From Methanosarcina barkeri MS (GTDB lineage Archaea; Halobacteriota; Methanosarcinia; Methanosarcinales; Methanosarcinaceae), in NCBI RefSeq assembly GCF_000970025.1, contig NZ_CP009528.1, forward strand, positions 1,103,168 through 1,167,167: 64,000 nucleotides of DNA, in the 5' to 3' direction. Positions 52,651-55,805 of the stretch are shown here, piece by piece. Position 1 is the first letter of the stretch. Every line of letters begins with the position of its first letter. The translations under genes and the position numbers were made by a program. Below the pieces are notes generated by a model. It did not search any database, had not been told where the DNA came from, and saw only the letters and a list, made by a program, of their open reading frames with translations.

Positions 52651-52908
52651 ATGACCTCATGCAAACTATTTGAGAGGACCGAATCTTATTATCTCGATCC
52701 TTCAAGAATAGGTAAAACTTTAAAAAGATATCAATCTCTAAAGAAACACAATACAACCTACTTCTCTTTGAACAGGTTCTTCCACCTGACAACGACAAAA
52801 AGAATCCCGGGATCTCAAAACCAGGCCTCTAAAAAGAAAGCACCAGAGTTTCAAAACCAGGCTTCTGAAAAGCTGGCTTTAATATTTAAGGAGGACCTGG
52901 AATGGTAA
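52651..52908 (+). CDS. Possible 85-aa leader ORF overlapping the MATE start
   Basis: AGGATGAG precedes its ATG, and its TAA stop lies within the MATE start (ATGGTAA), which would couple translation. The product is basic (MTSCKLFERTESYYLDPSRI, then a duplicated QNQAS stretch with Lys-rich linkers) and resembles no family I know. The ATGGTAA overlap and the ribosome site are the only support. Confidence 0.25.
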   Translation: MTSCKLFERTESYYLDPSRIGKTLKRYQSLKKHNTTYFSLNRFFHLTTTKRIPGSQNQASKKKAPEFQNQASEKLALIFKEDLEW

Positions 52909-54410
52909 GTGGCGAAGAAACGATAAGTAACGAAGAAATGAAATCCGGGAACATAGTGAATCTATTCTTGAAATTTGCATTCCCGACCGTCGTTGGAGTT
53001 GTCATTGCCGGAATCCAGGAAATAATTGACGGCTTTTTTATAGGAAATGCTATAGGAAGCTAGGGACTTGCAGCAATTACTCTAGCCTATCCCGCTTATA
53101 TGGTTATAATCGCTATTGGAGTAATTATCGGGATCGGTGCATCAAGTCTTGCGGCCTTCCAACTTGGAAAGGAGAACCTCAGCCGAGCTCTGGATATAGT
53201 ACACAATGCTTTTTCCTTGTGTCTTCTTACAGGAGCAGTTTTTACTGTAATCGGGATGATCTTCTGTGAAACCTCAATCAGCATCCTTGGAGCCAGCGGG
53301 CCTGCTCTAGCTTTTGCTCGCGATTACCTAAGGATTATCTTCGCTGGTTCAGTCTTTATGATTCTTTCAGTTGCCCTTGAACCACTGGTCAGAAACGACG
53401 GAAACCCCAGACTCTGTATGAATATCATGATTGCAGGAGTAATTGTAAATTTCGTGCTTGATTACTTTTTTATCATGCGTATGGGCATGGGAATGACGGG
53501 TGCCGCTTTTGCCACAATAGTTTCCTTTGCTCTCCCGGCATTGCTGTTCATGAATTACCTTTTTGGCAGGGAGGCAAAACTGAAACTCCGGCTTAAAGCC
53601 ATGAAGTTCAAACTCAGGATCCAGCTCCAGATTCTTAGAGCCGGCCTTCCGTCTTTCGTGATGCAGTTTTCACTAGCTCTCGTGCTCTTTGCATACAATT
53701 ACATGCTGCTCAGTTACGGATCCGAGCTTGCGGTCTCAGCCTATGGCATTATAGGATATGTCCTTTCAATATTTTCTATGCTTTTTGAGGGAATAGCCCT
53801 GGGAGTGCAACCGATTATAGGTTTCAACTATGAAGCTGGCTATTATGAAAGAGTTTCGAAAACCCTGAAACTGACAATTCTTTCATGCATCCTTACAGGA
53901 GTTTTCGGATTTCTATTAATCTCCCTTTTTCCCGAAAAAGTTGTGCAGATCTTCAGCCAGGGAGACTCCGAACTTCTGGAAGTTACCCTTCGAGGAATGA
54001 ATATTTTCATATTCTCTTTGCTCGTTGAAGGTACCGTGCTCCTCACTGCTATCTATTACCAGTCAATAAACCAAATCAGAGCAGCACTCTTTATATACCT
54101 TGGAAAGATTTTTGTTGTTCTTTTCCCTCTACTTTTTATCCTGCCGATCTTCTTCGGCCTGGATGGAGTCTGGGCTGCATCTCCGGCTACGGAATATATC
54201 ATGATGCTGGTAGTTGTGGGAATGCTGTCGAAGGAATTCAAGTTTCTAAGGCATTATGCAAAAGAAGCAGAGCCCAGACAATCAGCAAGTACAAAAAAAG
54301 CACTGCAGTTAGTCAGAAACAGTGGAATAGCTGATGTTGAGGAAAATCCCAAATTTGCTACTTTCAGGCCTGCCGAAAAAAGAGATATGTCGCGAGAGCC
54401 TCTTCCCTGA
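52902..54410 (+). CDS. MATE family efflux transporter with one in-frame TAG codon
   Basis: Reading from ATG 52902 (ribosome site AAGGAGGACC) gives a 502-codon gene with about 12 membrane segments, the usual MATE size. Segment 1 reads FPTVVGVVIAGIQEIIDGFF and is followed by IGNAIGS, TAG (53061-53063, codon 54), then GLAAITLAYPAYMV. The rest (to 54410) is intact, with paired ANFALDY-like NFVLDYFFIMRMGMGMTGAA and AIALGVQPIIGFNYEAGYYE motifs. A Gln or other residue is expected at codon 54. TAG is read as pyrrolysine in this genus, so either read-through or a recent nonsense mutation is possible. Confidence 0.8.
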
Positions 54411-54413
54411 AAT

Positions 54414-54550
54414 CCAGAGTTTCTGAAATTTAACTTTTATGAAATTCAGATTTTATGAAATTCAGATTTTATGAAATTCAGATTTTATGAAATTCAGATT
54501 TTATGAAATTCAGAGTTTCTGAAATTTAACTTTTATGAAATTTAACTTTT
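54414..54550. repeat. 16-bp tandem array flanked by a 33-bp direct repeat
   Basis: Four to five copies of TTTATGAAATTCAGAT lie between two copies of a ~32-base stretch (CAGAGTTTCTGAAATTTAAC + TTTTATGAAATT), at 54414-54445 and 54511-54542. Confidence 0.85.
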
Positions 54551-54623
54551 AAGGCTGTGAACTACCTCTCTCTGAATTTTTCGCCTAAAGGTTTAGATTT
54601 GAGAGAAAAGTGGTTCGCTTTAC

Positions 54624-55041
54624 TATTAGCCCCCTTGAAAAATGATTAGTTTTTTAAGGAATATTAAACCTTATTTGCCAAATATAATGTAGTGTCAGCC
54701 CTCCCCCAGTTAAGTTACATTCATTAAATGATCTATTTGCTGTTTAAATGATTTAAGTACTTTAATTGGTAAATTAAACGTTGATTTTTCCTTACTTTTA
54801 ACATTGAATTTTGTATGGATAAAAATGACATCAGATGCCTTATTTATAAATAAATATAAATTGTAAACGAATAAAGTATTTATCTCAATTTTTTCTTGAT
54901 TTAAAAGAGTATTATAGATTGTTTATCTAAAAAATTGATTTTTAGAGTGTACCTTAATTGGGGAAACTCTAAATGCATACCTATCATCTAAAATAAGCAT
55001 TGTATGCCCTTAGATTTAGTACTGATTTGGAAGGACCCTAT
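54624..55041. mobile_element. 418-bp repeated element, copy 2
   Basis: It is 99.5% identical to 23969-24386 (2 substitutions, no indel). TTTACTATT occurs at 54619-54627 and again at 55041-55049, a candidate target duplication at its edges. One substitution spoils the inner terminal repeat (AAGTTACA for AAGGTACA), so copy 1 is closer to the presumed ancestor. Confidence 0.85.
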
Positions 55042-55276
55042 TTACTATTTAAGGAAAATCCATAATGCATGCGTGCTATGTGCATGGCAAGCTATGTGCA
55101 TGACAATAAAGCATCTAAGCAAAGGAAGCATCTAAGTAAAGGATTTTAAAGATTTATTACAGGATGGACTCTGGATGAATCCATCCTAAAATTGGATTTG
55201 CTCTTCATTTTATTTATATTATAAAAATAGTATTTGTTATAAAATATGGAACATTGGAGTTTAGGATATTGTTATA

Positions 55277-55405
55277 GAGCTGATCCCAAAACTCAAAATG
55301 ATTTTTCTGAATCCCAGATCTACAATAAGTAATAGATTTTCTGATCACGAAAATAATTTTGAAATTTTACTAATTTGAGGATAAAATTAGTTTTGGGATG
55401 GACTT
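55277..55405. mobile_element. 129-bp MITE-like element (GAGCTGATCCCAAAAC ends), copy B
   Basis: Left GAGCTGATCCCAAAAC, right GTTTTGGGATGGACTT, with ATA on each side (55274-55276 and 55406-55408) as 3-bp target duplication. Same design as copy A. Confidence 0.75.
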
Positions 55406-55805
55406 ATAAAATATAGGAACATTGGAGTTTAGGATATATCTGGATACATTCTTTAAAAACGTTTAAATATAAAATGTTTAAATTTAGAAATTTTAAATTT
55501 CAGGAATTCGGATTTGACTTTGATATTAGTACTTTATTTTTGGAGAGGGTGACTATCGGGAAATCGAGACATTATTAAGAATCGGGGCAAATGTCTCAAG
55601 TTACCCGTAAATAAGAGAAATAAATTGAATTCTTGGCCTTACTTTTTAAAAATTGAAAATTCTCGTACATATATTTTTCCAGCAAAACTGGAAAAAATTT
55701 GGTTGAAATTCACCACAAAAAAAATAATTTTAGCTTAAATATACAGGAATTGTGAAAGAAAATATCTCTTCACCATAAACTATTTATAGAATAGCTGGAA
55801 TTAGA

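Follow-up and report, generated by a model that had tools for sequence, protein, structure and literature searches.

An amber codon within a MATE transporter gene

The analysed window is a 64,000-nucleotide stretch of the Methanosarcina barkeri MS genome, and it carries a MATE family transporter gene, of the drug-efflux type, on its forward strand (52902–54410). Counting TAG as sense, the gene comprises 502 codons and closes with a TGA at 54408–54410. Reading the sequence directly, we found TAG at 53061–53063 (+), as codon 54 counted from the ATG at 52902, where it is flanked by IGNAIGS and GLAA; a Shine-Dalgarno-like AAGGAGG (52888–52894, +) lies 7 nt 5′ of this ATG. The genome record shows the identical TAG in its MATE gene (G000:C2:1156069-1157574). 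An initial annotation had described a complete MATE frame with this TAG as its sole interruption and 448 intact codons beyond it, and both descriptions were borne out: the codons 3′ of the TAG (53064–54407, +) are free of stops up to the terminal TGA, conserved and under purifying selection. Termination at the UAG would leave a 53-residue product containing TM1 only (52902–53060, +). We considered reinitiation at the first ATG past the TAG (53100, codon 67), which we judged unlikely as no Shine-Dalgarno-like motif is found there; the product would be without TM1 and the start of TM2, and positions 1–38 of the MatE profile would be missing from it.

To establish family identity we compared the 502-residue readthrough product with profiles and structures. 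It matched Pfam MatE (PF01554) at 115.7 bits (cut-off 24.9) and TIGR00797 at 168.9 bits (cut-off 147.4), and both matches span the TAG. An AlphaFold model built from 31 aligned sequences (pLDDT 85) has a 12-TM MATE fold, with TM-scores of about 0.8–0.9 against solved MATE structures. The protein resembles DinF-BH (BH2163, PDB 4LZ6/5C6N) and the MATE protein PF0708 (3VVN, 6GWH) over its whole length and in fold; by profile and predicted fold it is a DinF/PF0708-like MATE transporter, whereas both of these proteins are encoded by uninterrupted codon series. In the model, helices at residues 18–51 and 53–89 are separated by a one-residue break, and residue 54 follows just after it, where TM2 begins, in the TM1–TM2 turn. 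Homologues in the alignment vary at this position (Q, E, H, K or D), and DinF-BH has Glu there; from this range a lysine-like residue is probably tolerated in the modelled turn, and a lysine derivative would likely be accepted.

At the 3′ end of the gene, a 16-base unit, TGAAATTCAGATTTTA, is repeated in tandem in 8.4 copies (54408–54542), starting at the MATE gene TGA; the same array was also detected as a 48-base unit. Synteny with the nearest relative, genome G004, breaks in the same region (window positions ~54400–55480; G000:C2:1157.6-1158.6 kb), where the 5′ side aligns inverted and the 3′ side aligns directly.

In 2.4 Mb of the genome, 1,029 long frames are coding-like, and 38 of them (3.7%) end in TAG. 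Within the window, to the extent that it can be tested, the earlier statement that TAG terminates no confidently called gene is correct: of the 52 frames that are 120 codons or longer and coding-like in composition, three end in TAG. Two of these lie antisense to genes for RNA polymerase, and the other is a 122-codon frame overlapping a longer frame on the opposite strand.

Codon 54 and selection across Methanosarcina

Orthologues of the transporter are present in most of 31 Methanosarcina species, at about 67–92% identity. We read 24 of them base by base and determined the residue at codon 54, the comparison proposed at the outset: CAG (Gln) in 20, GAG (Glu) in one and CAC or CAT (His) in three. 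None of the 24 has an internal stop in this reading, at codon 54 or elsewhere inside the gene. Apparent TGA, TAA or TAG codons in several orthologues, which might have suggested a stop conserved across the genus, turned out to be the terminal stops of those genes or to lie 5′ of their starts. CAG also occupies the corresponding position in two paralogues and in the nearest relatives, G004 and G030. From the distribution of CAG among these two and the other orthologues, the TAG is a single C-to-T change (CAG to TAG) on the branch of the window genome, private to it and dating from after it diverged from the nearest sequenced species. On this comparison codon 54 is not a conserved recoding site.

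We next asked how the gene has evolved on that branch. Apart from the TAG, 27 synonymous and 9 nonsynonymous changes have accumulated in the transporter core since G004 split off, compared with synonymous to nonsynonymous counts of 17:10 for G004 and 24:18 for G030. Pairwise dN/dS is about 0.18–0.21, the same as between sister pairs, and a crude mixture estimate limits any wholly neutral phase to at most about 10–20% of the window branch. The 448 codons past the TAG show no second lesion. These values indicate a transporter lineage under normal purifying selection, a picture that very recent loss would reproduce identically; the TAG may be young, or constraint on the gene may have continued after it arose, and both would be expected to yield the same data. 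Six of 15 replacements on the window branch introduced residues absent from the 22 other orthologues, against 9 of 35 on the two sister branches, a difference that is not significant (Fisher p = 0.33), and two of the window-branch replacements, L86F and G311E, altered sites invariant in those 22 sequences. At most, such unusual replacements hint at relaxed constraint.

Pyrrolysine decoding and other in-frame amber codons

The genome encodes the means to read UAG as pyrrolysine (Pyl): a tRNA-Pyl gene adjoins pylS, and in-frame TAG codons occur in two mtmB genes, in mtbB genes and in an mttB-like gene, the last assigned by eye. The TAG codons of MtmB, MtbB and MttB share the cell with that of the MATE gene; they are conserved and tied to catalysis, whereas the MATE TAG is private and falls at a variable site. 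In M. acetivorans, the amber codon of a foreign reporter was read as Pyl at an apparent efficiency of 20–30%, and a PYLIS element is not essential for such readthrough (reviewed in PMC2933860). Examined for a PYLIS-like structure, the RNA 3′ of the MATE TAG was not exceptional (z = −1.5; 15 of 200 shuffled sequences were equally stable). The closest precedent is Thg1, the tRNA-His guanylyltransferase of M. acetivorans, in which Pyl is described as a product of neutral evolution (Heinemann et al. 2009, cited via PMC2933860 and PMC3639795). Like the MATE gene, it is a non-methylamine gene with an in-frame TAG in one species and a sense codon in relatives, and its Pyl is not essential. The two differ in that Pyl translation in Thg1 was studied experimentally, whereas the MATE gene encodes a membrane transporter known from sequence alone. 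Among the papers searched, no Methanosarcina MATE gene with a TAG came up.

To place the MATE TAG among other in-frame stops, we surveyed 2.4 Mb of the genome (53% of the 4,533,209-bp chromosome) for stops flanked on both sides by coding-like sequence, most of which were checked against Pfam. This approach replaced a synteny-based survey of nonsense changes against G004, which was dropped because long alignment blocks covered just 32% of 400 kb. The TAA and TGA cases were for the most part neighbouring genes sharing one frame. Sorting by hand, we counted otherwise whole genes, neither transposon nor methylamine related, in which a Pfam domain extends across a single stop. Four carry TAG (MATE, DUF169, a disulphide oxidoreductase and PCMT), one carries TAA (fasciclin) and none carries TGA. 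Measured against the 32–39% TAG that codon usage predicts, the excess is small and borderline (binomial p = 0.04–0.08) and thus suggestive only.

The DUF169 gene (TAG at G000:C2:2423402) and the pyridine nucleotide-disulphide oxidoreductase gene (TAG at G000:C2:2520350, where relatives have Tyr codons) are otherwise intact, and in both the TAG is apparently private. A glutamate dehydrogenase frame also contains an in-frame TAG (G000:C2:2356890) and is probably a pseudogene, because it also looks frameshifted near its 3′ end. An F420-hydrogenase/dehydrogenase beta-subunit-like gene (G000:C2:121706-121955) has one TGA and one TAA, which marks it as an ordinary pseudogene with several lesions, in contrast to the genes interrupted by a single TAG.

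Two families carry TAG codons that are repeated between genomes or gene copies. The gene for PCMT (protein-L-isoaspartate O-methyltransferase; G000:C2:550986-551735, L150:10986-11735, + strand) has TAG at C2:551502, codon 173 of the open frame and directly before an APYDR-type motif. Of 31 Methanosarcina species, 12 have TAG at this site and the others GAG or AAG, and there are no other stops in the PCMT segment of the TAG-bearing species. A PCMT homologue is among the Pyl predictions made for M. barkeri in 2005 (PMC1242214). By its distribution, codon 173 is a good candidate site for Pyl that has been retained, and a stronger one than the MATE codon. An IS66-type transposase is present in four identical copies with the same in-frame TAG (G000:C2:343780-344796, 1095051-1096067, 2197904-2198920 and 2654550-2655566), and we found no TAG-free full copy in the genome, which suggests that the element probably spread with the TAG already present. 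Given the private TAG genes, PCMT and the transposase together, this organism can probably read an in-frame TAG in genes other than the methylamine genes.

Interpretation of the MATE amber codon

We consider a recent, near-neutral change from glutamine to an amber codon read as Pyl, still giving some full-length transporter in the manner of Thg1, to be the probable explanation. A single C-to-T change made TAG of the glutamine CAG in what is otherwise an ordinary DinF-like MATE gene, in this lineage alone. Charged tRNA-Pyl (anticodon CUA), competing with the release factor, would then insert Pyl at a fraction of UAG codons, and the gene would yield both some full-length transporter with Pyl in place of Q54 and a stub of 53 residues that is presumably degraded. 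Since the TM1–TM2 turn is polar and tolerant, the substitution would be close to neutral and the full-length protein probably functional. We infer readthrough of the MATE mRNA, the presence of Pyl at position 54 and the activity of the product, all three, as probable. The initial annotation had left the choice between Pyl use or tolerance and inactivation by a CAG-to-TAG change. The mutational event it named is upheld by the orthologues; Pyl tolerance is plausible and has moderate support from the Pyl machinery, the tolerance of the site, the other in-frame TAGs and normal purifying selection.

Against tolerance stands the fact that one genome alone carries the MATE TAG, so there is no conservation showing that the interrupted gene is kept. 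The same privacy fits a young pseudogene, in which the TAG mostly terminates, the cell has in effect lost the transporter and recency alone explains why the remainder is intact. Such lesions do arise here, as the private TAGs in the DUF169 and disulphide oxidoreductase genes and the damaged glutamate dehydrogenase show, and an intact paralogue, 55% identical (G000:C2:2076798-2078144), could make the amber gene dispensable. However, 448 codons without a second lesion, normal dN/dS and the appreciable rate at which the host reads UAG as sense (PMC2933860) argue the other way, and we regard loss as a serious but less likely alternative. Programmed use, in which Pyl or regulated readthrough has a role in the transporter, would fit an intact frame in a genome with Pyl machinery. 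It is highly improbable: a special role is unsupported because no relative shares the TAG (0 of 24 orthologues), position 54 is variable and the downstream RNA structure is unexceptional. A sequencing or assembly error would need to alter just one base; with an assembly that is near complete (99.9%, two contigs) and other changes specific to the window branch that look ordinary, we think this very unlikely. It is also unlikely, if slightly less so, that the gene encodes a natural Pyl transporter, full-length with Pyl54, whose level is set by Pyl supply and whose dosage is coupled to growth on methylamines.

The amber codon of the MATE gene is real and, for Pyl-decoding archaea, ordinary: one more instance of a pattern already known. 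The near-neutral substitution that we favour would make it a clean case of a sense codon recently turned amber in such an organism, and with this one gene the absorption of TAG mutations by Pyl-decoding cells becomes directly testable.
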